Assembly (NCBI GenBank): GCA_022794215.1
Contig: JAAWEH010000005.1
Location: forward strand, 1 to 51,372
DNA from: Oscillospiraceae bacterium
Lineage (GTDB): Bacteria > Bacillota > Clostridia > Oscillospirales > Oscillospiraceae
Reading direction: 5' to 3'
DNA: 51,372 nt
Of this stretch, positions 2,751 through 17,472 are shown in pieces; positions within the stretch are counted from its first letter, which is position 1; the number at the start of each line of letters is the position of its first letter. The translations under genes and the position numbers were made by a program. The notes beneath the pieces were generated by a model, which saw only the letters and a program-made list of their open reading frames with translations, did not search any database and was not told the origin of the DNA.

Positions 2751-3041
2751 ATGCTGACCATTATAGAGCTGGAAGCCCGGGAGGATGGACGCCACGGGCT
2801 GCAAAGTCAAAGCCACCGAACCCAGTGCTGGCTGGAGGGCTGGGTGGCGGTGCCACCGGAGCTTCAGCAGGAGGCTTGGGACTGCGGGGGCTACTGTGAG
2901 ATCCAGGTGGACAAGAAGGGGGTTCTCACCGGGCTTACGCCCATATCCCGGCCCGAGCAGCCGGAGCCCGAGCCTACGGTGGAGGAACGGCTTCGGGCCG
3001 ATGTGGATTATTTGGCGGCGCTGCAGGGGGTGAGCTTATGA
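2751..3041 (+). CDS. Small phage protein preceding XkdX (XkdW-like position)
   Basis: A 96-residue acidic protein with a Pro/Glu-rich segment (PEQPEPEP) and a C-terminal helix with the pattern TVEERLRADVDYLAALQG. Small proteins with such tails commonly lie between the tail fibre and XkdX in Gram-positive contractile phages; their role is unclear. Its stop overlaps the XkdX start (ATGA). No tail fibre gene lies upstream; asparaginase is the next gene. Family assignment rests mainly on position and composition. Confidence 0.6.
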   Translation: MLTIIELEAREDGRHGLQSQSHRTQCWLEGWVAVPPELQQEAWDCGGYCEIQVDKKGVLTGLTPISRPEQPEPEPTVEERLRADVDYLAALQGVSL

Positions 3042-3166
3042 GCGTTTTTGAGATGGCGAAAAAGTATTATCCCCGGCTGTGGAGCAAGGAGCGGATCCAG
3101 GCTTTGGCCGCCGCGGGGCGGCTGACAAAGGAGGAGGTCCGGCAGGTGCTGGGGACGGAACAATAA
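3038..3166 (+). CDS. XkdX family phage protein
   Basis: A 42-residue protein starting MSVFEMAKKYYPRLWSKERI, with the helix-turn-helix-like pattern 'YY..LWSKERIQALAAAGRLTKEEVRQVLG' typical of XkdX, a short protein found after tail fibre genes in PBSX-like phages. The start overlaps the preceding stop by four bases. It is short enough to be missed by gene callers. Normal neighbours are tail fibre upstream and holin/endolysin downstream; here the fibre is missing but the lysis genes follow. Confidence 0.85.
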   Translation: MSVFEMAKKYYPRLWSKERIQALAAAGRLTKEEVRQVLGTEQ

Positions 3167-3220
3167 GAAGAACTATATTCAGAATAGTGAATCCGGGGAG
3201 AAAAGTCAAGGGGGAAGTGG

Positions 3221-3910
3221 ATGTCTGCAAAGGAAGCGGTGCTGGAGCTGGCCCGGTCTCAGATCGGGGTGCGGGAAGCGCCCATGGGGAGCAACCGGGT
3301 GAAGTACAACACGGAATATTACGGGATGGAGGTTCAGGGAGAGGAGTATCCCTGGTGCTGCGTGTTCCAGTGGTGGCTGTTTCACCACGGGGGAGCGGGA
3401 GAGCTGTTTTACGGCGGAGGGAAAACGGCCTCCTGCACCGCCCTGCTGCGTTTTTATCAGCGGCGGGGGCAGGAGGTGGAGAAGGAGAGGATCCGGCCGG
3501 GAGATCTGGTGTTTTTTGTCTTTGACGGCGGAAAGAGCGGCGGGATGAACCACGTGGGTATCTGCGAGAAGGCGGAGCCGGGGTATGTGACCACCATCGA
3601 GGGCAATACGGGTACGGATCAGGCCAACGGAGGGACGGTGGCCCGGAAACGGCGGGCACTAAAATATGTGGGCGGGGCGGCCCGCCCGGATTATGGAGAA
3701 GAGGGGGAAGGGGACGGGATGAAGCTATACCGGTATGTGGACGAGATGCCCGACTGGGCCAAGGCCGCGGCGGTGAAGGCCATTCAAAACGGGTATGTGA
3801 AGATGGATGACACCGGGGCCGCGGGCGTGTGGGAGAGCAATCTGCAGACCCTGGTGTGGATGGATCGGGCGGGGCTGTTGGACACGCCGGCCAAAGGGGT
3901 GGAAGGATGA
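3221..3910 (+). CDS. Phage endolysin: CHAP-type amidase/peptidase with C-terminal wall-binding-like domain
   Basis: 229 residues. The N-terminal ~160 residues form a CHAP-like cysteine hydrolase: PWCC (Cys46 probable nucleophile), MNHVGI (His111) and a downstream EGNTG. The last ~60 residues (YRYVDEMPDWAKAAAVKAIQ and onward) form the small helical module seen at the C-terminus of many clostridial endolysins, resembling an SLH-type 'DVPDWA..AV..L...GY' repeat. It would cleave peptidoglycan from inside once the holin opens the membrane. GGGGGAAG precedes the ATG. The stop overlaps the holin start. The 54-base gap upstream is AT-rich but has no convincing promoter. Confidence 0.88.
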   Translation: MSAKEAVLELARSQIGVREAPMGSNRVKYNTEYYGMEVQGEEYPWCCVFQWWLFHHGGAGELFYGGGKTASCTALLRFYQRRGQEVEKERIRPGDLVFFVFDGGKSGGMNHVGICEKAEPGYVTTIEGNTGTDQANGGTVARKRRALKYVGGAARPDYGEEGEGDGMKLYRYVDEMPDWAKAAAVKAIQNGYVKMDDTGAAGVWESNLQTLVWMDRAGLLDTPAKGVEG

Positions 3911-4356
3911 GCGACGCGGTAAAGCTGGTGAAGGCGGCCATAGCTGCCGGGGTCGCCGCCCTTACTGCCCTGTGGGGTTGGTTTGGCTGGCTGGTGGTGG
4001 GCTGGATACTGTGCATGGCCCTAGATGTATTTACGGGAATGGCGGTGGGCGCCAAGGCGGGCAAATGGTCCTCCGCCGTGGCCCGGGAGGGCCTTTGGCA
4101 CAAGGCGGGGTGCGTGGCGGCGGTGGCGGCCTCGGGGATGCTGGACATGGTGGTGGCGCTGCTGCTGGAGGAGCTGCCGAAGGGGGCGCTGCCCTTTGAG
4201 TATACGGTGTTTTTGTGCCCGTTGGCGGTGGTGTGGTATCTGCTGACGGAGGTGGGAAGTGTTGTGGAGAACGCGGGGGCCATGGGCGCGCCGATACCGG
4301 GGTGGCTGCGAAGGGCGGTGGCATCCCTGCGGGACCGGGTGGATGAGAGCCTGTAA
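3907..4356 (+). CDS. Phage holin, TcdE/phi29-type (Phage_holin_4)
   Basis: 149 residues beginning MSDAVKLVKAAIAAG, with about three hydrophobic segments (residues ~10-40, ~60-85, ~95-115) and the family pattern WILCMALDVFTGMAVGAKAG near the first hairpin. Members form pores that release the endolysin, and some also release clostridial toxins. The start at 3907 overlaps the endolysin stop (ATGA). A strong terminator follows, so lysis genes form their own transcription unit with XkdX. Confidence 0.9.
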   Translation: MSDAVKLVKAAIAAGVAALTALWGWFGWLVVGWILCMALDVFTGMAVGAKAGKWSSAVAREGLWHKAGCVAAVAASGMLDMVVALLLEELPKGALPFEYTVFLCPLAVVWYLLTEVGSVVENAGAMGAPIPGWLRRAVASLRDRVDESL

Positions 4357-4364
4357 AAGAAGAG

Positions 4365-4397
4365 AAAGAGGGTGGGGTGGTTCCGCCCTCTTTTTTT
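4365..4397 (+). terminator. Rho-independent terminator after holin
   Basis: AAAGAGGG pairs with CCCTCTTT around a short GG/CC extension and is followed by seven T residues. It separates the XkdX-lysis unit from the packaging and structural genes. Confidence 0.8.
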
Positions 4398-4415
4398 CCG
4401 GGAATGGAGAGATGG

Positions 4416-4760
4416 ATGTATAAAAACAGGCAACGGAGCAGGGCGAAACGGGAGGACAAGAGGGGTGAGGCCATGAGGAAAAAAGGGGTGCGCCGGCAGA
4501 TCGAGGAGCTGGCCCAGAGCCGGGTCAACGACGCGGTGCGGCTGGCCTTTCTCAAGGAAGAGGAGCTGGAAGAGCTGAAGGAGCTGGATTTGTCGGCTCT
4601 GACAGAGTTTAGAAGGAGCGGTACGGGGACGGTGGAGATGAAATTTGTGGATCGGCTCTCCGCACTGCGGTGGCTGGCGGAGAACGAGCGGGATCCCCGG
4701 GCCAAGCGGCTTTATGAGGCCCTGGAGAGAGGGGCGCAGAGGCTGGAGGGGGAGAGCTGA
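4416..4760 (+). CDS. Terminase small subunit-like protein
   Basis: 114 residues from the ATG at 4416 (GGAG upstream); an internal ATG at 4473 also has a GAGGGG site, so the start is uncertain. The protein is highly charged and mostly helical, and ends with the pattern VEMKFVDRLSALRWLAENE, which resembles the C-terminal oligomerisation part of PBSX-type small terminases. Such proteins recognise phage DNA and load the large subunit. No clear N-terminal DNA-binding domain is seen, and the protein is shorter than XtmA (about 265 residues), so specific pac recognition is doubtful. It lies directly before TerL. Confidence 0.7.
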   Translation: MYKNRQRSRAKREDKRGEAMRKKGVRRQIEELAQSRVNDAVRLAFLKEEELEELKELDLSALTEFRRSGTGTVEMKFVDRLSALRWLAENERDPRAKRLYEALERGAQRLEGES

Positions 4761-4761
4761 A

Positions 4762-6015
4762 ATGGAGTTTTCGGCCAAGCAGAGGCTGGTGCTGTCCTGG
4801 TGGTGCGACGCTTCGCCCTATCGGGACAGGGAGGCCATTATCTGCGACGGGGCGGTGCGCAGCGGGAAAACCTTTTGCATGGGGCTGTCCTTTTTCTGCT
4901 GGGCCATGCGGCGGTTTGACGGGGCGGGGTTTGCTTTGTGCGGCAAGTCGGCTTTGTCGGTGCGGCGGAACGTGCTGAGCGGGGTGAGGCCGGTGCTGGA
5001 GCAGCTGGGCTTTCAGTTTCGGGAAAAGCGGGGGCAGAACTTGCTGGAGGCTGCCTTTGAGGGGCGGAAAAACACCTTCTATCTCTTTGGCGGCGGCGAT
5101 GAGGCCGCTGGGGGACGGATCCAGGGAATGACGCTGGCGGGGGCTTTTTTGGATGAGGCGGCGCTGATGCCCCGATCCTTTGTGGAGCAGGCGGTGGCCC
5201 GGTGCTCGGTGGAGGGGGCCAAGGTATGGTTTTCCTGCAACCCGGAGGGGCCGGAGCACTGGTTTTATAAGGAGTGGGTCTGCAGGGCCCGGGAGAGGCG
5301 GGCACTGCGGGTTCGGTTTGCCATGGAGGACAACCCCGGCTTGAGCAAACAGATGCTGGAGAGGTACGCCAGAAATTTTCGGGGGGCCTTTTACCGGCGG
5401 TTTGTGCTGGGGGAATGGGCCGTGGCCGAGGGCAGGGTGTATGACTTTTTCCATGAGGGAATGGTGCGCAGGGTGCCGGATGGGCCCTTTCAGGAATGGC
5501 GCGTCTCCTGTGATTACGGTACGGTGAACCCCATGTCCATGGGACTTTGGGGACGGCGGGGGAGGGTTTGGTACCGGGTGGAGGAATTTTATTACGACTC
5601 CCGGCGGGAGGGACGGCAGAAAACCGACGGGGAGTATGTGGAGGAGCTGGAGCGGCTGGCGGCGGGGCGGCAGGTGAGCCGGGTGATCGTGGATCCGTCG
5701 GCGGCCAGCTTTATGGCGGCCCTTCGGCAGAAGGGATGGCCGGTGGAGGCGGCGGACAATGAGGTGCTGTCTGGGATACGGGTGACGGCGGAGCTGCTGA
5801 AAACGGGCAGGCTGGTCATTTGCAGTCCCTGCCGGGACGCCATACGGGAGTTTTCCCTCTACTGCTGGGACGAAAAGGCCAAGGGGGACCGGGTGGTGAA
5901 ACGGTTTGACCACGCGATGGACGAGATCCGGTACTTTGGGATGAGCCTGGAGAAAGAGGGCAGGTTCATTGGCGGCTTTGGCGTGGAGAGAGGCGGAGAG
6001 GGAACGTGGAGATAA
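4762..6015 (+). CDS. Phage terminase large subunit (PBSX family)
   Basis: 417 residues. The N-terminal ATPase has Walker A DGAVRSGKT (29-37) and Walker B LAGAFLDE (125-132). The C-terminal nuclease shows an RNase H-like set of acidic residues: Asp251 (CDYGTVNP), Asp311 (IVDPSA), and Asp383/Asp387 (RFDHAMDE). All expected catalytic residues are intact, so it should cut and translocate DNA into capsids. The start one base after the TerS stop is preferred over an upstream in-frame extension. It overlaps the possible GTG start of the portal gene. Confidence 0.92.
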   Translation: MEFSAKQRLVLSWWCDASPYRDREAIICDGAVRSGKTFCMGLSFFCWAMRRFDGAGFALCGKSALSVRRNVLSGVRPVLEQLGFQFREKRGQNLLEAAFEGRKNTFYLFGGGDEAAGGRIQGMTLAGAFLDEAALMPRSFVEQAVARCSVEGAKVWFSCNPEGPEHWFYKEWVCRARERRALRVRFAMEDNPGLSKQMLERYARNFRGAFYRRFVLGEWAVAEGRVYDFFHEGMVRRVPDGPFQEWRVSCDYGTVNPMSMGLWGRRGRVWYRVEEFYYDSRREGRQKTDGEYVEELERLAAGRQVSRVIVDPSAASFMAALRQKGWPVEAADNEVLSGIRVTAELLKTGRLVICSPCRDAIREFSLYCWDEKAKGDRVVKRFDHAMDEIRYFGMSLEKEGRFIGGFGVERGGEGTWR

Positions 6016-6044
6016 AAGGCGGAGAGGGACAGGGGGAGGAAGAG

Positions 6045-7196
6045 ATGGGAGCGAAATGGTGGAAGAGAAAAGCGCCGGCCCAGGCGGAGGTGCAGACCAG
6101 AGAGGGGGAAAGGCACCCCTTTGGAATGCTGAACGGGTATGTGCCCCTGAGCGGTGGGGAGCTCCGGTTATATAGGGCCATCCGGGAGGCGCTGCCTATT
6201 GTGGACGCGGCGGTGACAAAGCTGGTGCGGCTGACGGGGGGCTTGAAGGTGGAGGTTCCGGAGGGCCAGGAGGAGCTGGAGGAGTTTTTGCGCACGGTGA
6301 ATGTGGGGCGGGGACAGAGGGGCGTGCAGACCTTTTTGGACAGCTACCTGGATTCCATGCTGGTGTGCGGGCAGGGCGTGGGGGAGATGGTGGTGGACTG
6401 GCAGTCGGGGGAGATCGCCGCGCTGCTGTGCGCTGACCCGGCTCACATTGAGATCAAGGAGGGGGACAGTCCCCTGGACTTTTCCGTGTGTGCCCGCAGA
6501 TGGGACGGGACGGTGGAGGAGCTGCCCCGGCAGGAGCTGATCCTGTTTACCCCCTTTCAGCCGGAGCCGGAGAGCCCCTATGGGGTTTCGCTGCTGCGCT
6601 CCATGCCCTTTTTGACCGGGGTGCTGATGAAGATCTACCAGGCCATCGGGATGAACTGGGAGCGGATGGGTAATGCCCGGTTCGCCGTGGTATATAAGCC
6701 GGGCAGCGGGGACGGACACTGGGCCCGGGAGCGGGGGCAGGAGATTGCCCGGGAGTGGTCGGCGGCTATGCAGGCCGGGAAGAACGGGAGCCTGCGGGAC
6801 TTTGTGGCTGTGGGGGATGTGGACATCAAGGTTATCGGGGCGGACAACCAGGTTTTGGATTCCCAGGTACCGGTGCGGCAGATATTGGAGCAGCTGGTGG
6901 CCAAGACGGGGATACCGCCCTTTTTGCTGGGGCTGAGCTGGTCGGCCACCGAGCGGATGAGCGCCCAGCAGGCGGACATGATGACCAGCGAGATCATGGC
7001 CCTGCGGCGAAACCTGACGCCGGTGGTGGAGCGGATCTGTGAGGTGTGGATGCGCCTGCACGGATACGGGGGAAAGCCCCGGGTGGAATGGGAGGACATC
7101 AATTTGCAGGATTTGGTGGAAGAGGCAAGGGCGGAGCTGTACCACGAGCAGGCGGAGACGATGCGGGAGGAACGGGAAGGGGAAAAGAAGAAGTGA
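6045..7196 (+). CDS. Phage portal protein
   Basis: 383 residues from the ATG at 6045, which has an excellent GGGGGAGGAAGAG ribosome site; a GTG at 6006 would add 13 residues. Features match SPP1/DUF935-like portals: ESPYGVSLLRSM in the middle, a long C-terminal helical stretch (SWSATERMSAQQADMMTSEI) and a charged C-terminus. Portals form the dodecameric ring at the capsid vertex through which DNA is pumped. Position between TerL and protease supports the call. Confidence 0.87.
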   Translation: MGAKWWKRKAPAQAEVQTREGERHPFGMLNGYVPLSGGELRLYRAIREALPIVDAAVTKLVRLTGGLKVEVPEGQEELEEFLRTVNVGRGQRGVQTFLDSYLDSMLVCGQGVGEMVVDWQSGEIAALLCADPAHIEIKEGDSPLDFSVCARRWDGTVEELPRQELILFTPFQPEPESPYGVSLLRSMPFLTGVLMKIYQAIGMNWERMGNARFAVVYKPGSGDGHWARERGQEIAREWSAAMQAGKNGSLRDFVAVGDVDIKVIGADNQVLDSQVPVRQILEQLVAKTGIPPFLLGLSWSATERMSAQQADMMTSEIMALRRNLTPVVERICEVWMRLHGYGGKPRVEWEDINLQDLVEEARAELYHEQAETMREEREGEKKK

Positions 7197-7320
7197 GCCG
7201 ACGGAACCACCCCCGATGGATGGGGCCCTGCAAAGGCGATCCGCCGCCTCTGCAGGGAGGGGCAGCGGAGTGAGCGTTCGGCTTTGGCCGGAGGCGAGGG
7301 ATATGGAAGGGAGAGATAGC

Positions 7321-8241
7321 ATGAAAATCATGAAGCAGGCCAACGCCGGCGGGGGCCGGCAGGCTGACGGGGAGGAGCTGGGACTGATCAACCAGCTGGC
7401 ACGGAAGGAGCTGACGGCAGAGGAGGTGTATACCTTTGAGCTGCGGCTGTGCGACAACGAGATTGACCGGGAGTGGGAACGGTTTCCCCGGGAGACCCTG
7501 GAGAGCCTGGGGGAGATGTTTGTGGGAAAGAGCGGGATCTTTGACCACAACTGGTCGGCGGCGGGGCAGAGCGCCCGAATTTACAAGACCCAGGTGGTGG
7601 AGGAAGAGGGAAAGACCACCAAGGCGGGGGATCCGGCCTGTTACCTGAAGGGATGGGCCTATATGCTGCGAACCGAGGGGAACAAGGATCTGATCGCGGA
7701 GATCGAGGGGGGCATCAAGCGGGAGGTCAGCGTGGGCTGCGCGGTGGAGAAGGAGATCTGCTCCATCTGCGGCGGAGAGCTGGGCTCCTGCCGGCACGTG
7801 AAGGGGCGCACCTACAACGGTAAGCTGTGCTGGGGAGAGCTGACAAAGGCCAAGGACGCCTATGAGTGGTCTTTTGTGGCGGTGCCCGCGCAGCCTAAGG
7901 CGGGAGTTATCAAGGGGATGAGCCCCACGCTGAAGGAGATGGCCCGGGGCAGCGGCGCGGCCATGGCGGAGCTGCTGGAGCTGGAAAAGGCTGCTGAGAC
8001 CGGGCGGCGATACCTGGGACAGCTTCGGGATGAGGTGGTGCGGCTCACCGCGGTGAACCAGCCGGAGCTGGATGTGACGGTGGTGCGGTCCATCGCCGGG
8101 AAGCTGGAGGAGGATGAACTGGAGGCGCTGAAGGCCGTTTTTGCCCGACAGGGACGGGAGAGATGGAACGGCGGAGCGCAGCTGACCTATCCGGGGACAG
8201 GAAAGGCGGAGAAGGTCGAGGATGGGGCGTTTCTGGTATAA
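7321..8241 (+). CDS. Capsid maturation protease/scaffold candidate with zinc-ribbon-like insert
   Basis: 306 residues, ATG preceded by GGGAGAG; an upstream in-frame ATG at 7303 is possible. Residues ~30-190 resemble a prohead serine protease: His76 in GIFDHNWS and Ser137 in REVSVG are the expected catalytic pair. Between them and the core end lies a cysteine set C147-x2-C150, C157, C170, which looks like a metal-binding insert and is unusual for this family. The C-terminal ~100 residues are charged and helical, suiting a fused scaffold. Position between portal and capsid supports a role in head assembly. Family identity is inferred, not proven. Positions 7197-7320 before it hold no gene. Confidence 0.68.
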   Translation: MKIMKQANAGGGRQADGEELGLINQLARKELTAEEVYTFELRLCDNEIDREWERFPRETLESLGEMFVGKSGIFDHNWSAAGQSARIYKTQVVEEEGKTTKAGDPACYLKGWAYMLRTEGNKDLIAEIEGGIKREVSVGCAVEKEICSICGGELGSCRHVKGRTYNGKLCWGELTKAKDAYEWSFVAVPAQPKAGVIKGMSPTLKEMARGSGAAMAELLELEKAAETGRRYLGQLRDEVVRLTAVNQPELDVTVVRSIAGKLEEDELEALKAVFARQGRERWNGGAQLTYPGTGKAEKVEDGAFLV

Positions 8242-8280
8242 GCCATTTAAAACGCAAAATGAAAAAAGGAGGATGGAGAG

Positions 8281-8622
8281 ATGAAAGGCAAGGTTTCGTT
8301 TGAGGGGATCGGCGAGGTGGCGGCTACCTTTTACGCCGGAGAGGGCGTGAAGGCGGGACAGGTGGTCAAGGTCAGCGGGGACTCCACTGTGGGGCCCTGT
8401 GCCACCGGGGAGGATTTCTGCGGTGTGGCAGGCCAGGTCAGAGACGGCTGCGTCGGGGTGCAGGTGGAGGGCTTTGCCCAGGTTTCCTGCAGCGACAGCA
8501 CGGTGACGGTGGGCCGGGTGGCTCTGGTTTCCGACGGCAACGGTGGTGTAAAGAAGGGTGAGGGCCGGGAATATCTGGTGGTGACTGACGACGGCGCCGG
8601 CACCATCACCATCAAAATGTAA
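8281..8622 (+). CDS. Capsid decoration/stabilising protein-like
   Basis: 113 residues rich in Gly, Val and Thr with regular beta-strand spacing, no charged helices and a C-terminal TITIKM strand. Small beta-barrel proteins of this kind immediately upstream of the major capsid gene usually coat or stabilise the head. AAAGGAGG precedes the ATG. There is no motif that would prove the function; position and fold class carry the call. Confidence 0.68.
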   Translation: MKGKVSFEGIGEVAATFYAGEGVKAGQVVKVSGDSTVGPCATGEDFCGVAGQVRDGCVGVQVEGFAQVSCSDSTVTVGRVALVSDGNGGVKKGEGREYLVVTDDGAGTITIKM

Positions 8623-8634
8623 GGAGGAATCGAG

Positions 8635-9666
8635 ATGGGGTATCATTTTGACGATCTGAAGCTGGACAAGGGTATGTATTCTGTGGCAGGCAAGAGCTTT
8701 ACCAGTGTGCTGGAGGGAGAGGATCCCTCGGAGCGGTACAAGGGTACGGCTTTGGAGGGACTGGACGCCTATCAGCGGCAGCTCAAACGCTTTGACATTA
8801 AGGTCAAGGGGATGGGCAGCGATGTGGTGGACAAGTTTTTCCAGTCGGCTCAGTCTGCGGTGCTGTTTCCGGAGTACATTGCCCGGAGCGTGAAGCAGGG
8901 CATGGAGGAGGCGGATCTGCTGCCCAGCATTACCGCGGCGGTGACCAACATTGAGGGGCTGGACTACCGCTCTATCACCTCCGTGCCCGACAAGAGCAAA
9001 AAGGAGCTGCGCCGGGTGGAGGAGGGTACCAGCATCCCCCAGACCCAGGTGAAGACCCAGGAGAACCTGGTGAAGCTCCACAAGCGGGGACGGATGCTGG
9101 TGTGCTCCTATGAGGCTATCCGGTATCAGAAGCTGGATCTGTTCTCGGTGGCGCTGCGGCAGATGGGCGCCCACATCAGCCGGCAGCTGCTGGAGGACGC
9201 CATTGACGTGCTGGAAAACGGCGACGGGAACGACAACGCCGCCCAGAAACTGAAGGTGGGCACTGCGCCCATGGGCGGTACGGCCGGAAAGCTGAGCTAC
9301 GGCGATTTGGTGGATTTCTGGGCCCAATTTGACCCCTATGAGATGAATACCCTGCTTGTGAGCGGGGATGTGATGCTTCAGCTTTTGAAGATGGAGGAGC
9401 TGCAGAACCCCCTGACGGGTCTGAACTTCCAGGGAACGGGAAAACTGCAGAGTCCTCTGGGAGCCAACCTGCTGCGGACAGCGGCGCTGGGCAGCGGAAA
9501 GCTCATCGGTTTGGACAAGCGGTATGCCCTGGAGATGGTAAAGTCCGGGGATGTGCTGGTGGAGTACGACAAGCTGATCGACCGACAGCTGGAACGGGCG
9601 GCGGTGACCAGCGTGGTGGGCTTTGCCAAAGTGTTCCCGGAGGCCTGCAAGGTGCTGACGGTGTAA
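8635..9666 (+). CDS. Phage major capsid protein
   Basis: 343 residues with a strong AAGGAGGAA ribosome site, as expected for the most abundant protein of the cluster. Sequence features fit an HK97-fold, PBSX XkdG-like capsid: a helical N-terminal arm, the central VTNIEGLDYRSITSVPD segment, MNTLLVSGDVMLQLLKM, and a C-terminal TSVVGFAKVFPEACKVLTV strand/helix. No separate long scaffold domain is fused to it. Location between decoration and connector genes is canonical. Confidence 0.85.
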   Translation: MGYHFDDLKLDKGMYSVAGKSFTSVLEGEDPSERYKGTALEGLDAYQRQLKRFDIKVKGMGSDVVDKFFQSAQSAVLFPEYIARSVKQGMEEADLLPSITAAVTNIEGLDYRSITSVPDKSKKELRRVEEGTSIPQTQVKTQENLVKLHKRGRMLVCSYEAIRYQKLDLFSVALRQMGAHISRQLLEDAIDVLENGDGNDNAAQKLKVGTAPMGGTAGKLSYGDLVDFWAQFDPYEMNTLLVSGDVMLQLLKMEELQNPLTGLNFQGTGKLQSPLGANLLRTAALGSGKLIGLDKRYALEMVKSGDVLVEYDKLIDRQLERAAVTSVVGFAKVFPEACKVLTV

Positions 9667-9676
9667 GAGGGGGGCG

Positions 9677-9711
9677 GCCCGCGGCGGCCTGGACAGCAGG
9701 CTACCGCGGGC
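9677..9711 (+). promoter_or_regulatory. Strong stem-loop after the capsid gene
   Basis: GCCCGCGG (9677-9684) pairs perfectly with CCGCGGGC (9704-9711). There is no T-run after it, so it is more likely an mRNA-stability or partial-attenuation element that raises capsid transcript over the downstream connector and tail genes (inference) than a full terminator. Confidence 0.5.
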
Positions 9712-9772
9712 GAAGGCCCCTTGTATAGCTGCGGTTCCTGGAGGGTTTGCCGGGACGGTTGGAGGGAGAAGA

Positions 9773-10446: not shown

Positions 10447-10934
10447 AAGGGCTGCTGGAGCTGGGACAGGCCCTGGCGGAGCACCTGCGGGAGCAGGGTG
10501 TGGAGGCGGTGACGGCCTGGACGCCGGAGAGGCGGCTGCGGCCGGGCCGGGCGGTGGTGGCCGTGTCCCTGCGGAAGCTGGAGAGCGGGCCCCCGGGGTT
10601 TCAAAATTACCTGGGGGAGCGCTACAACCAGGAGACGGAACAGTGGGAGGAGCTCTACGGGAAAAAGGTGGAGCTGACTTTCGGACTGGATGTGTATGCG
10701 GCCACGGCCCAAGAGGTTCAGGCGGGGCTGGAGGTTTTGGGAACGGCTTTGGAGCAGAGGGGAGCGGCCGGGATGGCGCCGGTGGAGCTCTCGGCGGGAG
10801 AGACGGAGTACCAGAGTGAGAGCAGACGGTATGTTTGCCCGGTGCAGGCCAGGTTTTCCGCCTGGGCCACGGCGGTGAGCCGGGGAGAGGGAGAGTTCCT
10901 GGACTTTGAGGTGAGAGGAGAGAGTGAAGGATGA
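10443..10934 (+). CDS. Tail terminator/completion-type protein
   Basis: 163 residues, located immediately before the sheath gene, the usual place for the tail terminator (gpU/YqbJ-like) that caps the tube and binds the head. A mixed alpha/beta pattern (KKVELTFGLDVYAATAQEVQ) fits that fold. ATGA overlaps join it to both neighbours. No diagnostic motif is visible. Confidence 0.6.
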   Translation: MKGLLELGQALAEHLREQGVEAVTAWTPERRLRPGRAVVAVSLRKLESGPPGFQNYLGERYNQETEQWEELYGKKVELTFGLDVYAATAQEVQAGLEVLGTALEQRGAAGMAPVELSAGETEYQSESRRYVCPVQARFSAWATAVSRGEGEFLDFEVRGESEG

Positions 10935-11950
10935 ATGTGACGGAGCATCAGAGACCGGGGGTGTACTCGGTATATGACGCATCCTCCGCGGTGAGCAGCC
11001 GGACGGGGGGCAAGGCCGTGGGGATCGCGGCGGTATGCGGCAAGGGGACGGCAGGACAGGTGGAGACACTGACCAGCTATGAACAGGCGGCAGGGCTCTT
11101 TGGCCGGGAGGAGACACTGAGCAAGCTGGTTCAGCTTTTGCTGCGCAACGGGGCATCCAAGGTATACGCAGCGCCGGTGGCGGATGAGAAGGGATATGAG
11201 ACTGCCTTTGCCGCGCTGGAAAGGGTGGAGGATGTGGCTGTGGCAGTCTGCGACAGTGACAGCCTGACGGTGCAGCAAAGTCTGAGAGACAGTGTGAAGC
11301 AGGCCAGCGAGAACCGCAGAGAGCGGCTGGCGGTGGTATGCGGCGGACAGGGAGCCGCCATGGAGGAGCTGATCCGACGGGCGGAGGAGCTGAACTGCGA
11401 GCGGGTGGTGCTGGTTCCCGGTGGGGCGGAGGCGGCCGCCGCTGTGGCAGGGGCCATTGCCGGAGAGAGCGACCCTGCGGCGCCCCTGAGCGGCGTGGAA
11501 CTGAAGGGGGCTGCCGACCTGGAGGAGCAGTGGAGCGACAATGAGATTGACCAGCTGGTGCTGGGAGGCGTGACGCCCTTGGAGGTCAGGGGCGGCGCGG
11601 CCAGCGTGGTGCGGGGGGTGACAACCCGAACCAAGACGGGCTCTGTCAGCGACGCTACCTGGCGGGAACTGACCACCATCCGGGTGGTGGACAATGTGAT
11701 TCCCGGGCTGCGGAATGCGCTGCGGGCCAGGTTTAGCCGGGCCAAGAATACGGAGCAGGGACGGGGAGCCATCCGAAGCCAGGTCATTGTGGAGCTGGAG
11801 CAGAAGATGGCGGAGGAGATCATCACCGGCTACGATGGGGTGACGGTATCGGCCATGGAGGGGAACCCCACGGTTTGCCTGGTGGAGTTCCGGTTTACGG
11901 TGGCCCACGGGATCAACCAGATCTGGCTGACGGCGCACATTACGGTATAA
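10931..11950 (+). CDS. Contractile tail sheath protein
   Basis: 339 residues. The N-terminus HQRPGVYSVYDASSAV and C-terminus VEFRFTVAHGINQIWLTAHITV are characteristic of XkdK-type sheaths, as is the conserved TTIRVVDNVIPGLRNALRARF segment. Sheath subunits contract to drive the tube through the target envelope. It is shorter than PBSX XkdK (about 466 residues); the middle protrusion domain seems reduced. This gene makes the cluster myovirus-type. Confidence 0.9.
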   Translation: MNVTEHQRPGVYSVYDASSAVSSRTGGKAVGIAAVCGKGTAGQVETLTSYEQAAGLFGREETLSKLVQLLLRNGASKVYAAPVADEKGYETAFAALERVEDVAVAVCDSDSLTVQQSLRDSVKQASENRRERLAVVCGGQGAAMEELIRRAEELNCERVVLVPGGAEAAAAVAGAIAGESDPAAPLSGVELKGAADLEEQWSDNEIDQLVLGGVTPLEVRGGAASVVRGVTTRTKTGSVSDATWRELTTIRVVDNVIPGLRNALRARFSRAKNTEQGRGAIRSQVIVELEQKMAEEIITGYDGVTVSAMEGNPTVCLVEFRFTVAHGINQIWLTAHITV

Positions 11951-12000: not shown

Positions 12001-12390
12001 ATGATCGCAGCGCAGTTTCCGACCAGTGCGGACATTTATCTGGAGCTGAACGGGAAGAAGATGGCGGTGGTGCAAAGCTATTCGGTCACCACCACCAAGA
12101 CAAGCTCTGTGGTGGAGGCCTTCGGGGAGAGCGAGCCGGTGGCGACCATACCGGGGCCCAAGAAGCACACCCTGGTGCTGACACGGCTGTATGCCACCGA
12201 GGAGGCGGCCAAGGAGGGAATGAATTTCCACGATCTGGAGGACTTCAACCTGGTGATCTGCAAGCCGGATCGGAGGATCATCTACTCGGGCTGTCAGTGG
12301 GAGAATCTCAGTGAGTCGGGGAAGCTGGGGGATATGGTGCTGGAGAAGGTGACCATCGTGGCGGCACGGCGAGTGGAGAGCGCACTGTGA
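12001..12390 (+). CDS. Phage tail tube protein (XkdM-like)
   Basis: 129 residues, beta-rich, with FPTSADIYLELNGKKMAVVQ at the N-terminus and the central GPKKHTLVLTRLY strand, as in XkdM-family tube proteins that stack into the inner tube. AAGGAGGAAGAG precedes the ATG. The stop overlaps a GTG start of the chaperone gene. Position directly after the sheath is canonical. Confidence 0.87.
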   Translation: MIAAQFPTSADIYLELNGKKMAVVQSYSVTTTKTSSVVEAFGESEPVATIPGPKKHTLVLTRLYATEEAAKEGMNFHDLEDFNLVICKPDRRIIYSGCQWENLSESGKLGDMVLEKVTIVAARRVESAL

Positions 12391-12806
12391 GAGGCGGGCT
12401 GCTGGGACTGCCCCGGTATAAAAAATTGAACGGGGGATGGAGCCTGCGGCTGTTGTCCGCCTGGGAGGAGCTGGAGTGCCGCCGGGAGGGAGAGGAGCTG
12501 GCAAAGGAGGAGAGGGACGGAGCCCTCTGCGCCAATGCCTGTCTGCTGGCTCGGGCCCTTAGGAAGGACAAAAGCCCCCTTTTTGAGAGCGGGGCGGAGG
12601 TGCTGGAGAAGCTGACGGCCGGGCAGATCGCCTATTTTGCGGGGCTGTGGGCGGCGTTTGACCGGGAGTGTGATCCGGGGCCCTGGGACATGGAGGCGGC
12701 GGACGAGGCAAAAAAAGGCTGGAGCACACGCCTTATGAACGCCTTCAGTGGCGTGTGCTCAAGGCTTTTGGCGCTCTTCCAACGGAGGAGCGGGCGAAGG
12801 CGATGA
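12387..12806 (+). CDS. Tail assembly chaperone, short (G-type) product
   Basis: 139 residues from a GTG start that overlaps the tube stop. A helical chaperone-like protein (WEELECRREGEELAKEERDG) in the slot that precedes tape measures. At codons 109-110 (AAA AAA, 12711-12716) it carries a slip site; ribosomes that do not slip read 29 further codons and stop at 12806. Such proteins bind the tape measure and help tube polymerisation, and are not in the finished tail. Confidence 0.82.
   Translation: MRGGLLGLPRYKKLNGGWSLRLLSAWEELECRREGEELAKEERDGALCANACLLARALRKDKSPLFESGAEVLEKLTAGQIAYFAGLWAAFDRECDPGPWDMEAADEAKKGWSTRLMNAFSGVCSRLLALFQRRSGRRR
12692..12760 (+). promoter_or_regulatory. Programmed -1 ribosomal frameshift cassette
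   Basis: Three elements occur in the right order. GGAGG lies at 12692-12696, 13 bases upstream. The slip heptamer A AAA AAA spans 12710-12716, in phase with the zero frame GCA AAA AAA GGC. After a 5-base spacer comes a perfect 11-bp stem, GAGCACACGCC (12722-12732) with GGCGTGTGCTC (12750-12760), loop 17 bases. This matches the architecture of dnaX-type and tail-chaperone frameshift sites. Confidence 0.88.
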
Positions 12807-13003
12807 GCCACCGGGATTACCTGTGGTGTGCCCTGCATCTGGCCTTGGATGGGGAGGAGGAGCTGGAGAGGCTTTGCCCTTCCTGCCGGATGGAGGCGGA
12901 GGAGAGCCGCTGCCCTGTGTGCGGGGCGGCGGTCAGCGACTGTGGGGAGAACCGGGGGTTTGATATGGAGCGGTTTTTGGAGATGGGGGGCGAGAGGGCT
13001 TGA
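12716..13003 (+). CDS. Frameshift extension of tail chaperone (GT-type product), Cys-rich
   Basis: After slipping back one base at 12716 translation continues RLEHTPYERLQWRVLKAFGA and runs 95 residues to 13003, giving a fusion of about 205 residues with the first 110 codons of the upstream gene. The extension has an independent-looking ATG at 12755 but no good ribosome site there. It contains CPSC and CPVC pairs 9 residues apart plus another Cys, a probable zinc knuckle. G/GT pairs of this sort are conserved in long-tailed phages. Confidence 0.8.
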   Translation, partial: RLEHTPYERLQWRVLKAFGALPTEERAKAMSHRDYLWCALHLALDGEEELERLCPSCRMEAEESRCPVCGAAVSDCGENRGFDMERFLEMGGERA

Positions 13004-13578
13004 CCAACTTTTTGGCGATGGCTTTGGAGCAAGAGGCCGTTAGAGACGTGAGGGAGGAAGAGATCCCGTTTCATTTTCGTTTTGCCGGGAACCGGGCCCT
13101 GGGGGAGCCTTTTGCCCAGAAACAGCCCTCAGACCTTCGGCAAGCGCCGGAGGGGGAGAGGTTTGACTCTCGCCCCCTCTGGGCTTCCCCTCTTAACGAC
13201 CGGGGAAGAGAGCCTGGGAGCTCCATTCTGCCGGATCAATCCCGGAGCTTTTCCGAGAAGAGGATGTTTGCTCCGGGGATTTACACTGCAATGCCGCCGG
13301 TGTTTGACAGGCAAGGGGAGCTGACGGAACGGCTGCAAGGGCTAAGGGCTGAAGGGCAAGGCCAAGGGCCGGAGGGCCGTTCCGATGAGATCCCTTTGCT
13401 GGCGGCGGTTCGGAGAGCGGAGAGGACGGCTTCTTTTGTGCAGAGGTCCGGGAGGAACTTGACGGTCACCTTACCTGAAACGGTGGGGGAGAACGGCGGC
13501 GGGCTGAGTGTGGAGGAGCTGGATCGGGCCGTGGAGAGGGACGCCCGGCGGTATGACGGGGGATTTTCATTGTATTGA
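13000..13578 (+). CDS. Unrecognised 192-residue protein at the tape-measure position
   Basis: The frame starts with TTG overlapping the chaperone stop and encodes 192 residues. It lacks what a tape measure normally shows: hundreds of residues of coiled coil and hydrophobic transmembrane-like patches. It is polar, rich in Arg, Gly and Pro (for example GLRAEGQGQGPEGRSDE), with a more ordered C-terminus (SGRNLTVTLPETV ... ERDARRYDGGFSLY). If it is a tape measure, about 1.5 angstrom per residue predicts a tail of no more than about 29 nm. It may instead be an internally deleted tape measure or an unrelated protein. An initiation site other than TTG is not obvious. Confidence 0.55.
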   Translation: MTNFLAMALEQEAVRDVREEEIPFHFRFAGNRALGEPFAQKQPSDLRQAPEGERFDSRPLWASPLNDRGREPGSSILPDQSRSFSEKRMFAPGIYTAMPPVFDRQGELTERLQGLRAEGQGQGPEGRSDEIPLLAAVRRAERTASFVQRSGRNLTVTLPETVGENGGGLSVEELDRAVERDARRYDGGFSLY

Positions 13579-13589
13579 GGAGGGGGAGC

Positions 13590-14168
13590 ATGGAGCTTGC
13601 ACCCATGAAATATAAGGACTTTACCTGGCCCCACAATCCCAGAACCTACACCATTGAATACCGGCGGGAGATGGGAGTACATAAGGTGCCTTTTGGCCGG
13701 TATCATATGCAGGATCTGGGGCTCACCCGACGGGTGATGAAGGGGGAAGGGGAGTTCGTGGGCCCGGGGGCCTATGAGCAGTTTAAGGCGTTGGCGGCGG
13801 TGTTTTACAGCGATGGACCGGGGGCGCTGATCCATCCGGTGTGGCAGGCGGCCAATGTGTATTTTGTGGAGCTTTCCCTGAGTCAAGAACCCCGGCGGGA
13901 TTATGTGAGGTATACCTTTACATTTTGGGAGAGCTATGACGGGTACAAAGCCTATGCCAGAAAAGAGGAGGATCCAGAGGGCGAGAGGATGGCGGCAACA
14001 GAGGGCGGCGTCTCGGGTGAAGAGCTGTGGCACACGGTGGCCAGGGGGGAGAGCCTTTGGAAGATCGCCCGGGATCATGGGGTGGAATTGACCCAGATCA
14101 TTGCCCGGAATCCCCAGATCAAGAATCCCAACCTGATCCATGTGGGAGAGAAGGTGCGGGTGAAATGA
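13590..14168 (+). CDS. LysM-containing tail/baseplate protein (XkdP/gpX-like)
   Basis: 192 residues from the ATG at 13590 with GAGGAGGGGGAG upstream. Residues ~1-120 are beta-rich (FTWPHNPRTYTIEYRREMGV); the last ~45 residues are a LysM domain: WHTVARGESLWKIARDHGVE, then IIARNPQIKNPNLIHVGEKV. In contractile tails this protein joins tube to baseplate hub, with LysM probably gripping the hub. Its stop overlaps the next start. Confidence 0.85.
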   Translation: MELAPMKYKDFTWPHNPRTYTIEYRREMGVHKVPFGRYHMQDLGLTRRVMKGEGEFVGPGAYEQFKALAAVFYSDGPGALIHPVWQAANVYFVELSLSQEPRRDYVRYTFTFWESYDGYKAYARKEEDPEGERMAATEGGVSGEELWHTVARGESLWKIARDHGVELTQIIARNPQIKNPNLIHVGEKVRVK

Positions 14169-15100
14169 TGAAGGGATATTTGCTGACGGCAGAGGGGGAG
14201 AAGATCTGGCTGCCGCCTTTCTCCGGCTGGAGGCTGAGGCGAACCGGATCGGTTCCCTGTGACAGCTTTGAGGGGAACTGTCCCTGGGATGGGGGAGTGG
14301 AGAGCGCCCTTGATAGGGCCTGCCGGCTGATCGTGGAGCAGGAGGGGGCGCGGAGGTTTACCGGCGTGCTGGATGAGTATGAGATATGCTGGGATGAGAC
14401 GGGGGGAGAGCTGACGGTGTCGGGCCGGGGACTGGCGGCGCTGCTGCTGGACAATGAGGCCAGGGGGCAGGATTACCAGGTGGCGACCCTGAAGGATATT
14501 CTCCGCGACCATGTGGAGCCCTACGGGGTGCCGGTGGGCCGGGTTGGGGAGCTGGCGGCGGTGCCGGGGTTTTCCGTGAGCAGCGGGGAGAGCGAGTGGC
14601 AGGTGCTGTATGACTTTGCCCGGTATCACAACGGGGTGCAGCCCCGGCTGGACGCTTGGGGAAGTCTGACGGTGGAGGCCGGGGACGGCGGAAAGACGGT
14701 CTTGGTGGACGACCGAAGCGGCGTTATGGCGGTACGCTGGAGGGACAAGCGGTATGGGGTATGCTCGGAGATCCTGATACAGGATCGGAAACGGCTGGGA
14801 GTGCAGAGGATAACCAATGATCCATTTATAGCCCAGGGCGGGCAGAGGAGACAGGTGATGACCCAGCCGGGAAAAGGAGCCTATCAGGGGCTGCGCTATT
14901 CCGGGCAGTTTCAGCTGGATCGGTCGGCGGAGGAGCGGTTCCGGGCGGAGATAACCCTGCCGGGGAGCTACTTTTGTGAGCCGGGGGATCAGGTGTCTCT
15001 GCGTCTGACCCGGCCGGCCATTCGGGGGGTATGGACGGTACAGGAGACGGAGGCTGTGCTGGACAAAAAGGGCCAGCGGGTAAAGCTGACCCTGGGATAA
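14165..15100 (+). CDS. Tail hub protein (XkdQ/YqbQ, gpD-like)
   Basis: 311 residues starting MMKGYLLTAEGEKIWLPPFS at overlapping ATGATG. The arrangement of small beta-barrels, with VSSGESEWQVLYDFARYHNG in the middle and TRPAIRGVWTVQETEAVLD at the end, matches the late-control-gene-D/XkdQ hub family that forms the trimeric centre of the baseplate. In operon between LysM protein and spike. Confidence 0.82.
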   Translation: MMKGYLLTAEGEKIWLPPFSGWRLRRTGSVPCDSFEGNCPWDGGVESALDRACRLIVEQEGARRFTGVLDEYEICWDETGGELTVSGRGLAALLLDNEARGQDYQVATLKDILRDHVEPYGVPVGRVGELAAVPGFSVSSGESEWQVLYDFARYHNGVQPRLDAWGSLTVEAGDGGKTVLVDDRSGVMAVRWRDKRYGVCSEILIQDRKRLGVQRITNDPFIAQGGQRRQVMTQPGKGAYQGLRYSGQFQLDRSAEERFRAEITLPGSYFCEPGDQVSLRLTRPAIRGVWTVQETEAVLDKKGQRVKLTLG

Positions 15101-15113
15101 GGGGGAGAGACAG

Positions 15114-15503
15114 ATGTGGATAGCGGAGCGGAACCGAAAGGGCAGAGAGACCGGGGGAACGGCCTTTACCGGGCCGGTGACGGTTTCGGGGGATCCGGCG
15201 AGGGTCTACCTGGAGGGAGAACGGCGGGGAGTGGCGGTCTACGCCCCTGGGGGCTATCACTGGGCGCCGGGGCTGGGGGACGATGTGCTGGTACTGAAGG
15301 CGGGTGAGAGCGGAGAGAAGCCCTGCGCTGTGGGCGTGCCCACCAAGACGGAGGGAGAGGCGCTGCAGCCCGGGGAGGTACTTATCACTGGGGGGAAGTG
15401 CTCCATCAAGCTGGGGCTGGACCGGCGGATAGAGGTCACGGGGCTGCTCACTGTCAATGGAACCAGAGTGGGGCCGGAGCCCGAAGTGGAGGAGGATGGC
15501 TGA
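15114..15503 (+). CDS. Baseplate spike protein (gpV-like)
   Basis: 129 residues: an OB-fold-like start (YAPGGYHWAPGLGDDVLVLK) followed by a repetitive beta C-terminus (VLITGGKCSIKLGLDRRIEV, TGLLTVNGTRVG) typical of membrane-puncturing spike tips. AGGGGGAGAG precedes ATG. The spike sits under the hub and is driven into the target on contraction. Confidence 0.75.
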   Translation: MWIAERNRKGRETGGTAFTGPVTVSGDPARVYLEGERRGVAVYAPGGYHWAPGLGDDVLVLKAGESGEKPCAVGVPTKTEGEALQPGEVLITGGKCSIKLGLDRRIEVTGLLTVNGTRVGPEPEVEEDG

Positions 15504-15857
15504 ATGGCGCTGATCTTACGAGAAGGGGACTATGTTCCGGATGGGCAGGGAGGCTTTCGCCAAGCGACGGGGGCGGAGGAACTGTTGGAGCGGGTGCTGT
15601 GGAAGCTGACGATCCGACGGGGGAGCTTTCCCCTTTTGCCGGAGCTGGGCAGCGGGCTTCATCTGTTGGGGAGAGCGGCTCCGGCGGAGCGGGAAGCCCT
15701 GGCGGGGCAGTATGTGGCCCAGGCTTTGGCGGAGGAAGAGGTAAGCGTAACTGGGGTGGAGCTATCTCAGGAGGGACAGCAGGCCCGGGTGGTGGTCCGA
15801 CTGGACTGGAAGGGGCAGGAGCTAACGGCTACAGTGGAGGTGGGAGGACTGGCATGA
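15504..15857 (+). CDS. Baseplate wedge protein (gp25/DUF2634-like)
   Basis: 117 residues with the pattern ELLERVLWKLTIRRGSFPLLPELGSGLHLL, the characteristic helix-turn-'RG.FP..PE.G..L' of the gp25 wedge family. It starts one base after the spike stop and overlaps baseplate J. gp25-like proteins nucleate sheath assembly on the baseplate. Confidence 0.87.
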   Translation: MALILREGDYVPDGQGGFRQATGAEELLERVLWKLTIRRGSFPLLPELGSGLHLLGRAAPAEREALAGQYVAQALAEEEVSVTGVELSQEGQQARVVVRLDWKGQELTATVEVGGLA

Positions 15858-16909
15858 AAACGGTGGAAGAGATCTATGACGAGATGCTGGGAGTATTTCG
15901 GCGGGAGACGGGGGCCGAGGCCTCGGCGGTGAGTGATCTTTCGGTGAAGCTCTACGCGGTGGCGGCCCAGGTATATGGACTGTATGCGCAGGCCCAATGG
16001 CTGGCCAGACAGTGCTTTCCGCAGACGGCGGAGGGGGAGTATCTGGATCGCCATGGACAGCTGCGGGGGCTGGAACGACGGCAGGCAACGCCCTCCGAGG
16101 GAACGATCCGGTTTTCGGTGGATGAAGCGGCGGGGACAGAGCTTACCATCCCGGCGGGGACGGTGTGCGCCACGGCGGGGCTTACCCGGTTTGAGACGGT
16201 AGAGCAGGCGGTTTTGAAAGCGGGGGAGACTTCGGTAGAGGCGGCGGCCCGGGCAATGGAGCCTGGCAGCGGAGGCAATGTGCCGGCCGGAAGCATTTTG
16301 GTGATGGCCACGCCGCCGGTGGGAGTGAGCCGATGCAGCAATCCGGATGCCTTTCGGGGGGGCGTGGATACGGAGGGGGATGAGGCCCTCCGGGCCCGGA
16401 TCTTGGAGACTTACAAACGGATGCCCAACGGGGCCAACGCTGCCTTTTATGAGCAGGGGGCTCTGTCTTTTGACCAGGTGGCCGCCTGCACGGTGCTGCC
16501 CCGGGTGCGGGGGAGGGGTACGGTGGATGTGGCGGTGGCAGTCCAGAGTGGGCTGCCCGGTGAGGCGCTATTGCAGGAGCTTACCGAATATTTTCAGTCC
16601 CGGCGGGAGATCGCTGTGGATGTGCTTGTAAAGGCTCCCGCGGTGAAGAGCGTGAATGTGACGGTAAAGGTCACTGCAAAGGAGGGGGCAGAGCCGGCGG
16701 AGGTGAAGACTCGGGTGGAACAGGTCATCCGGGAATTCTTTTCCGGGGAACGGCTCAGCGAGAATATTTTGACGGCTCGGCTGAATAGCCTGGTGTTTGC
16801 CCAGGAAGGGGTGGCCAACTGCAAAATTACAGCGCCCACCGCAGACGTGGCGGTGGGCGCCGGAGAGCTGCCTCAGCTGGGAACGCTGAAGGTGGAGGTG
16901 GAGGCATGA
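15854..16909 (+). CDS. Baseplate J-like wedge protein (gp47/XkdT)
   Basis: 351 residues, ATG overlapping the gp25 stop. Typical J-like features: N-terminal helix (TVEEIYDEMLGVFRRETG), FPQTAEGEYLDRHGQLRGLE, an insertion barrel (IPAGTVCATAG), and C-terminal DVLVKAPAVKSVNVTVKV followed by the EGVANCKI motif. Length agrees with PBSX XkdT. Confidence 0.92.
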   Translation: MKTVEEIYDEMLGVFRRETGAEASAVSDLSVKLYAVAAQVYGLYAQAQWLARQCFPQTAEGEYLDRHGQLRGLERRQATPSEGTIRFSVDEAAGTELTIPAGTVCATAGLTRFETVEQAVLKAGETSVEAAARAMEPGSGGNVPAGSILVMATPPVGVSRCSNPDAFRGGVDTEGDEALRARILETYKRMPNGANAAFYEQGALSFDQVAACTVLPRVRGRGTVDVAVAVQSGLPGEALLQELTEYFQSRREIAVDVLVKAPAVKSVNVTVKVTAKEGAEPAEVKTRVEQVIREFFSGERLSENILTARLNSLVFAQEGVANCKITAPTADVAVGAGELPQLGTLKVEVEA

Positions 16910-17472
16910 GCTATGCCGAACGGCTGTGGGAGCTGCTGCTTCCCCTGGGGCCGTACAGCCGGCAGGGAGTGTATACCGCAGGGGAGCTGGCGGGGGAGGG
17001 CCACGCCCTGGACGGGGTGGAGGCGGCCCTGGATGAACTGGAGCGGGAGGCTATGCTGGATACGGCAGAGGGGTATGGACTGGAGAAGATCGAGTCGCTG
17101 CTGGTTCACCGGCCGGTGGCGGAGACGGCTCCGGATCGAAGGGCGGCCCTGTCTGCGCTGCTGCGGATCGGCGGGGACAGCTTTACCCTGGCGGCGATCA
17201 ACGACAACCTGAGAGGCTGCGGGCTCAACGTGGCCGTCAGTGAGACGGGGGAGCCGGGGGTGGTGGAGATCCGGTTCCCCGATGTGCCCGGTATTCCGGA
17301 TGGCTTTGAGCAGCTTAGAAAAATCATTGAGGAGATCCTGCCCTGCCATTTGCAGGCAAACTATGTATATTGGTACATTACCTGGAAGATGGTGGAGGAG
17401 AAATTCCACACTTGGGGGGAGATCGGAAGCGGAGACCACACCTGGCAGGAGTTGGAGAAAATGGTGCGGTGA
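16906..17472 (+). CDS. YmfQ/DUF2313-like baseplate protein (XkdU-like)
   Basis: 188 residues with TAEGYGLEKIESLLVHRP near the N-terminus and a C-terminal PCHLQANYVYWYITWKMVEE block seen in YmfQ-type proteins, which link wedges to tail fibres. It is the last gene of the cluster: its stop at 17472 is two bases from the stop of the convergent SLH gene, leaving no room for a terminator or a tail fibre. Confidence 0.85.
   Translation: MSYAERLWELLLPLGPYSRQGVYTAGELAGEGHALDGVEAALDELEREAMLDTAEGYGLEKIESLLVHRPVAETAPDRRAALSALLRIGGDSFTLAAINDNLRGCGLNVAVSETGEPGVVEIRFPDVPGIPDGFEQLRKIIEEILPCHLQANYVYWYITWKMVEEKFHTWGEIGSGDHTWQELEKMVR

Follow-up and report, generated by a model that had tools for sequence, protein, structure and literature searches.

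The window analysed here is a stretch of 51,372 nucleotides (nt) from an Oscillospiraceae bacterium (assembly GCA_022794215.1, contig JAAWEH010000005.1), and it carries a compact cluster of phage-type genes at positions 2751–17472. The cluster probably encodes a viriform of the gene transfer agent (GTA) type, a particle of phage origin that has been domesticated and is passed on vertically. It belongs to a family that occurs in single copy, is colinear between genomes, is congruent with the host phylogeny and is under purifying selection, and no means of excision was found in the cluster or its flanks of a few kilobases. Domestication, which a preliminary description of the window had proposed, is very likely and is supported by the colinear relatives, a low ratio of nonsynonymous to synonymous change (dN/dS), the host-following tree and the scarcity of broken copies. 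Random packaging of the GTA type is likely, and delivery of DNA to recipients is possible.

The source assembly comprises 1.30 Mb in 29 contigs and is 68% complete. Gene prediction places an unbroken run of plus-strand genes at 2751–17472 and, together with profile matches, confirms the intact head, packaging, lysis and contractile tail cluster of the preliminary description. Two small tail-type genes, a lysin gene, a holin gene and a terminator-like hairpin precede the genes for the small (terS) and large (terL) terminase subunits, the portal, g7, a decoration protein and the capsid. Three neck genes, the sheath and tube genes, a frameshifted chaperone pair, an unmatched short open reading frame (ORF), and genes for a LysM protein, hub, spike, gp25, J and I follow. 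Pfam profiles match the CHAP lysin, holin, TerL, portal (below the curated cut-off), capsid, sheath and baseplate J, and PHROGs profiles match the portal, head-tail adaptor, sheath, gp25-like and gpI-like proteins. TerL falls in the NCBI PBSX terminase family TIGR01547. Several of the roles were assigned by position.

The phylogeny of the cluster follows that of host rpoB, and the proposed domestication thereby passed a comparison of trees. Eighty cluster regions were fetched, and rpoB was found in 78 of the 79 genomes searched (59/60 and 19/19), with reading frames picked by RpoB motifs. Among 58 genomes of the family, the Spearman coefficient against rpoB is 0.873 for the head genes, where none of 500 permutations exceeded 0.19, and 0.83 for the tail genes; the Pearson coefficient of the head genes is 0.91. 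In the same genomes, all but one of the 34 strong host splits are compatible with every strong split of the head tree. One genome (G006) is present in the head and tail trees and absent from the host set. A wider tree covers 76 genomes from five families, after five of the 81 regions were omitted because rpoB was lacking or no frame was recognised. Here the head-gene tree reaches a Spearman coefficient of 0.914 against rpoB, shares 43 of 73 splits with it and is free of conflict with 40 of 42 strong host splits. Single genes from this set give 0.81 (terL), 0.88 (portal) and 0.83 (capsid). Each of the 12 genera with at least two members forms one clade for the head genes and likewise for the tail genes. 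A control prophage capsid (PF05065) was detected in 18 of 40 of these genomes at one to three copies each (24 in total). The tree of its best copies has a Spearman coefficient of 0.057 against the host, compared with 0.934 for the cluster in the same 18 genomes; the control tree is rough because PF05065 capsids are very divergent.

The cluster is under purifying selection. Whole-cluster dN/dS, a check called for in the preliminary description, lies far below 1 in seven close pairs (0.071, 0.112, 0.151, 0.168, 0.195, 0.264 and 0.36); a high level of synonymous change makes the last value (G354/G412) less reliable. The capsid and terL genes give 0.02–0.26 and 0.09–0.22, respectively. The Walker A, Walker B and nuclease residues of TerL, located by motifs, are present in the window as described earlier, and all 81 sequences compared retain the catalytic residues, with serine replacing threonine in Walker A twice. 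A raw count over 15 genes in 61 clusters of the family, with terS, con2, the chaperones and the short protein of the tape-measure slot excluded, found 793 of 915 gene slots intact. In the corrected count, gp25 was dropped because its profile was faulty (contaminated by an over-extended row), and two clusters at contig ends (G036 and G004) and five reduced layouts (four of g84, and G418) were also excluded. The remaining 54 full-layout clusters retain 740 of 756 slots intact. Of the 16 non-intact slots, six fall within a single G002 deletion, and another, that for I in G354, is at a contig end. Decaying copies, the other outcome looked for in relatives, are few.

The same cluster was sought in related genomes, as had been suggested, and was found there in colinear form. 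A TerL search recruited 110 loci, among which the window proteins match a portal in 90, a capsid in 58 and a sheath in 56; many of the loci are too short to hold all of the genes, and 17 match in TerL alone. Gene order is the same across the loci except for a decoration-capsid pair that has moved in some, to a place between terL and the portal gene in L029, L032, L033 and others, L156 and L157. With the capsid as the query, 144 of 400 sampled genomes of the family and 49 of 106 genera match, with one copy per genome and no in-frame stop among the matches listed; the two genomes with two matches carry pieces at contig ends. All 20 genomes examined from a Flavonifractor genus have the capsid gene, and a contig of Flavonifractor plautii ATCC 29863 (L025) carries the genes from terS to gp25. 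At the level of the order (Oscillospirales), 72 of 394 genomes from six other families match the capsid, although the weakest of these rows are doubtful.

Some database entries listed as viral were also recruited. MT835508.1 (L401, 46.7 kb, 'Bacteriophage sp.', human faeces) was considered as a phage relative and rejected, as it is by eye a piece of bacterial chromosome; cluster-family head genes adjoin a ribosomal protein operon on it (by eye). Contigs L245–L248 and L249, listed as viral, carry a capsid homologue of ~50% identity and no other cluster genes. The homologue in L249 is split into two widely separated pieces (1–276 and 6450–7385) with other genes around them.

Random packaging has its best sequence support, short of proof, in a truncation of the small terminase subunit (TerS) that the preliminary description did not mention. 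The match of the window TerS to Pfam Terminase_2 is weak (E 0.069) and confined to the C-terminal part. TerS was matched in 79 genomes, and two of the 81 regions yielded none. When these 79 were scored with an N-terminal profile based on 14 long TerS from relatives, 22 exceeded 17 bits, and 57, the window included, stayed below 8 bits or had no match. Five long TerS match Terminase_2 from position 1–6; of three short TerS, two match from position 64 and one has no match. By parsimony, the pattern requires eight changes on both the host and head trees, and eight losses if regain is disallowed. RcGTA TerS likewise appears to be without the N-terminal DNA-binding domain, and a passage of that study hypothesises that the domain loss abolishes sequence specificity and proposes it as the defining GTA-type change (PMC6854486). 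The assignment of the missing part as a helix-turn-helix rests on the Terminase_2 profile and on this passage.

The tail region of the cluster is also unusual, a point that the preliminary description did not make. No ordinary tape-measure gene was found in the 61 genomes that have both a tube and a LysM gene, 57 from the family and four from f23. The gap between the two genes has a median length of 1043 nt, and no predicted ORF in this slot exceeds 294 amino acids (aa). The slot protein is mostly 130–294 aa long, with five shorter predictions of 37–104 aa. Twenty-five aligned members share conserved ends (MTDYL and LDR...RDARRYDGGF.LY) around a variable middle, and in the one pair measurable, the slot protein is the fastest evolving (dN/dS 0.55). 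These features suggest a very short tail whose length would be set by the slot protein. The conserved frameshift signal claimed in the preliminary description was recovered: the A7 run occurs in the −1 register in 25 of the 31 loci with both chaperone halves, and the halves are fused in one frame in the other six.

Reduced tail regions occur in other clusters. In f23, the sheath profile matches one of 13 clusters (G717), and the head genes are retained. An end resembling that of the slot protein occurs on peptides of 39–69 aa in six f23 clusters. G717, with a 69-aa peptide matched by profile, keeps its sheath and tube; in the five clusters matched by eye, no sheath was found. In G590 (L341), the neck protein con2 is fused to the tail tube (con2 96.7%, tube 97.6%) and no sheath was found, which possibly represents a tail of one ring. 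Other fusion candidates are less complete (G751, tube part only, 86%; G615, con3 77% and tube 39%; G692, tube 19%). Stepwise reduction would lead from the 130–294-aa slot protein through the 69-aa form with sheath and tube to peptides of 39–51 aa with an RD-RRYD-type end (by eye) and no recognisable sheath, and the neck-tube fusion would finally fix the tail at one ring. Clusters of g84 and g81 (L139–L142 and L167) are cut down to head and neck, the tail being small or absent, and sheath and baseplate profiles matched nothing in them. Seven f23 genomes encode a small fibre-like protein after the cluster, and G626, G011 and G056 encode one nearby (by profile). In G011 (L112), this gene (19592–19957, minus strand) lies ~3.3 kb before terS, with a large opposite-strand SLH gene between.

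The codon style of the cluster, which the preliminary description took as a sign of an origin different from that of its neighbours, is real but does not argue for a recent foreign origin. The fourfold-site G/(G+C) is 0.71 in 22 cluster genes and 0.40 in 39 host genes of the window. At equal fourfold G+C (0.833 vs 0.829), the cluster has more G than rpoB in each of the 59 genomes compared. This bias is a lasting trait and no sign of recent arrival. Fourfold-site G also exceeds that of the flanking genes in 51 of 58 genomes. A 1087-codon open frame lies antisense to the head genes (7099–10362, minus strand), and long antisense frames recur in the clusters, probably as a product of the G-ending codons. 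Such frames confound the choice of ORFs by length, and a codon-based gene finder was used for the gene calls.

The cluster is bordered on the left by an asparaginase gene (minus strand, start at 2667) and on the right by the minus-strand SLH-domain gene, which is followed by a thymidylate synthase gene (thyA). No integrase, repressor or replication gene is among the predicted genes, and no direct repeat of at least 11 bp connects 2400–2760 with 17440–18100, both in agreement with the earlier account. The claimed lack of a tail-fibre gene also held, as a fibre profile built from relatives matched nothing in the window. A scan of 696 ORFs from flanks of a few kilobases with recombinase motifs gave no credible recombinase; its single match, a 666-aa protein, is by eye a FeoB-type transporter. 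Tyrosine integrases are present in 20 of 21 genomes searched, and the nearest among the matches listed lies ~54 kb from the cluster. The proposed shared address between asparaginase and thyA was not upheld, since neither gene occurs in any of the 60 other cluster regions. The SLH gene was borne out as a shared neighbour within the genus, in seven of the nine relatives whose right end can be read, one of them with an intervening gene. It faces the cluster end, and its product may be a surface partner of the particle. In f23, an HflX-like gene (named by eye) follows four of 10 clusters, from four genera.

Positions, strands and identification basis of the features in and beside the cluster
Feature	Position	Strand	Basis
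Small tail-type protein (phrog_22773), presumably XkdW-like by position	2751..3041	+	PHROGs E 1e-23; window and two genus mates, beside lysis genes
XkdX-like short protein	3038..3166	+	Weak Pfam XkdX match, E 0.012, below cut-off
Endolysin (CHAP)	3221..3910	+	Pfam CHAP 1.8e-9; PHROGs endolysin
Holin	3907..4356	+	Pfam Phage_holin_4_1 1.3e-28
Terminator-like hairpin and T run, junction of lysis and packaging genes	4374..4399	+	Consensus scan only
Small terminase without N-terminal DNA-binding half	4416..4760 (start 4416 or 4473)	+	Terminase_2 profile 70–126 of 141 only, E 0.069; N-terminal profile <=6.5 bits
Large terminase, catalytic residues intact	4762..6015	+	TIGR01547 6.5e-47; residues kept 81/81
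Portal	6006..7196	+	phrog_30703 E 2e-157
Conserved head-region gene g7 (phrog_16951), perhaps prohead protease/scaffold	7270..8241 (start 7270 or 7321)	+	phrog E 8e-120, no function assigned to phrog
Capsid decoration-type protein	8281..8622	+	phrog_4588 virion structural protein
Major capsid protein	8635..9666	+	phrog_3922 E 3e-110; Pfam Phage_capsid_4
Head-tail adaptor (con1)	9773..10114	+	phrog_541
Neck protein (con2)	10114..10446	+	No family match; found by tblastn in 45/61 family clusters
Neck/tail-terminator-type protein (con3)	10443..10934	+	phrog_25177 (function unknown); role by position
Contractile tail sheath	10931..11950	+	Pfam sheath domains; phrog_279
Tail tube	12001..12390	+	Position and weak match: phrog_27038 (unknown function), phrog_985 E 0.0014
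Tail chaperone N, short form	12387..12806	+	Position and frameshift; no family match; conserved in family
A7 slippery site, −1 frameshift	12710..12716	+	In register in 25/31 loci with both halves
Tail chaperone N2, reached by −1 shift	12717..13003 (separate start at 12803 possible)	+	Gene finder and frameshift analysis
Short protein in tape-measure slot, conserved ends and variable middle	13018..13578 (start 13000 or 13018)	+	186 aa; no family match
LysM tail protein (XkdP-like)	13590..14168	+	Pfam LysM 7e-12, DNA_circ_N 7e-6
Baseplate hub, gp44-like	14165..15100	+	Pfam Gp44-like_2nd 5e-6, just below cut-off
Spike-like baseplate protein	15114..15503	+	By position; family conservation only
gp25-like baseplate wedge	15504..15857	+	phrog_43, phrog_975
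Baseplate J	15854..16909	+	Pfam Baseplate_J 4e-57
gpI-like baseplate/tail protein, last cluster gene	16906..17472	+	phrog_521
Secreted SLH-domain protein, genus-shared neighbour, membership uncertain	17475..17978	−	Pfam SLH 2.8e-5

Among known systems, several marks of a GTA are found together in the cluster: structural genes without an integrase, attachment (att) sites or replication genes, vertical inheritance, purifying selection with an intact motor, and a TerS without its N-terminal domain. The cluster differs from RcGTA, whose tail is of another type, in its contractile sheath, its Bacillota host and the adjoining lysis genes of the window. It resembles the RcGTA-like elements of Alphaproteobacteria in being phage-derived and in its TerS (PMC6854486). 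The RcGTA-like elements are mostly inherited vertically, according to PMC10883770. GTA-like packaging of host DNA has been reported in gut Ruminococcaceae and Oscillospiraceae (Nat Commun 2026, PMC12946183, in part), with 3 of 25 events in Onthomonas, which NCBI taxonomy places within Oscillospiraceae. The same text gives a strong candidate operon in one Faecalibacterium metagenome-assembled genome only, of four searched. As described there, FpGTA shares with the cluster a Bacillota gut host, a head-packaging operon, a TerS without an obvious DNA-binding domain and a tail that is not visible or very short, and unlike the cluster, it is divided between two operons. Identity with FpGTA is not supported, as the portal profile matched none of three putative Faecalibacterium genomes, whose genus was set by one protein.

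The main rival explanation is a PBSX-like defective particle that packages host DNA, does not inject it and is kept for killing competing relatives. PBSX of Bacillus subtilis resembles the cluster in its TIGR01547 TerL, contractile tail genes and lysis genes, and the gene orders are presumably partly alike. PBSX carries its lysis genes at the end and has a full tape measure and fibres. The cluster has the terminase and the contractile tail but no full tape measure, fibre or adjoining regulator, and its lysis genes precede terS. A PBSX-like role fits the selection on the sheath and the reported behaviour of PBSX itself, a tailocin that packages host DNA in 13.4-kb pieces without injecting it (PMC12946183). 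However, strong constraint on the capsid and terL is odd for a killer that needs only its tail. The repeated loss of the TerS N-terminus, the retention of head genes in f23 where one cluster in 13 has a recognisable sheath, and the fibreless window also speak against this role. Sequence cannot settle the choice between a GTA and such a killer, but TerS points to GTA-type packaging, and the PBSX-like explanation is considered unlikely. Tailocins and extracellular contractile injection systems have no head or terminase genes, whereas the cluster keeps both the head genes and TerL conserved. A short contractile injection device with a protein cargo or none, its head serving another purpose, would accord with the short slot protein, the missing fibre, the SLH neighbour and the LysM domain. 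The conservation of the TerL ATPase and nuclease residues in all sequences implies DNA as the substrate and makes such a device very improbable.

The genes of the cluster are phage genes, of the same families as those of ordinary PBSX/XkdK-type temperate myophages, and the cluster could in principle be an ordinary host-restricted prophage that co-diverges with its hosts and keeps its integration module elsewhere or in unrecognised form. The virus collection IMG/VR holds such clusters, several on 13–14-kb contigs, and one cluster (G573) stands in the wrong family on the tree. Unlike these myophages, the cluster shows no lysogeny module, is single copy and is host-congruent, and the integrase and att sites of a functional prophage were not found in a motif scan and repeat search of flanks of a few kilobases. 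The single stop-free capsid per genome (among the matches listed), the control capsid without congruence, the lack of a credible recombinase, the kept SLH and HflX-like neighbours and the distance to the nearest listed tyrosine integrase leave this explanation improbable. A decaying prophage remnant would account for the G002 deletion and the few split genes, and it could apply to individual genomes. Decay of the entire family is refuted by the intact gene slots, the low dN/dS and the conserved frameshift site, and this explanation is scarcely credible.

Several observations weigh against a domesticated GTA. The system is known from its genes alone. The linear (Pearson) correlation between the tail tree and the host is 0.55 in the 58 genomes of the family. 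The cluster of G573 (family f2) nests inside family f1 on the head tree, whereas f1 is one clade on the host tree, and this misplacement implies at least one transfer between families. The capsid gene is missing in 256 of 400 genomes of the family, including 139 of 245 good ones, and three near-complete genomes of g98 and three of g81 lack it although other members of these genera carry it; loss is therefore common. G002 (L119) has an internal deletion of 4–5 kb that extends between the capsid C-terminus and the LysM gene, and a few other clusters contain a split gene. The TerS N-terminal part is retained in 22 of the 79 genomes, and no tail fibre was found in the window with the profile from relatives. 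Moreover, the two induced prophages of Flavonifractor plautii YL31 (37 and 42 kb), identified by a method that seeks excision, include no such element in the available part of the report (PMC8008629). The open PMC literature yielded no match pairing Flavonifractor with 'gene transfer agent'.

As a GTA-type particle, the cluster would be turned on by a host signal in a minority of cells. TerL, acting with a TerS that lacks its DNA-binding half, would start packaging anywhere on the chromosome and fill a small head. A short sheath-and-tube tail would be set by the 13018–13578 protein and aided by the frameshifted chaperone, and the holin and lysin would burst the cell. The released particles may carry host DNA to kin, and killing is less likely.

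More broadly, and with the balance about even, the clusters would constitute an order-wide GTA family of gut Clostridia that has been inherited mostly vertically since approximately the common ancestor of several Oscillospirales families, with some eight parallel TerS losses toward random packaging and a stepwise reduction of the tail. Very few GTAs outside Alphaproteobacteria have a known gene cluster, according to a passage of PMC12946183. The GTA-like packaging in gut Oscillospiraceae was reported without a gene cluster, and the present family is a good candidate for it. If so, it would be an old GTA in abundant gut bacteria with cultured strains, tying a reported packaging activity to genes. 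It would also offer natural replicates of the change from a phage to a random DNA packager and of the shrinking of a contractile tail without an ordinary tape measure.

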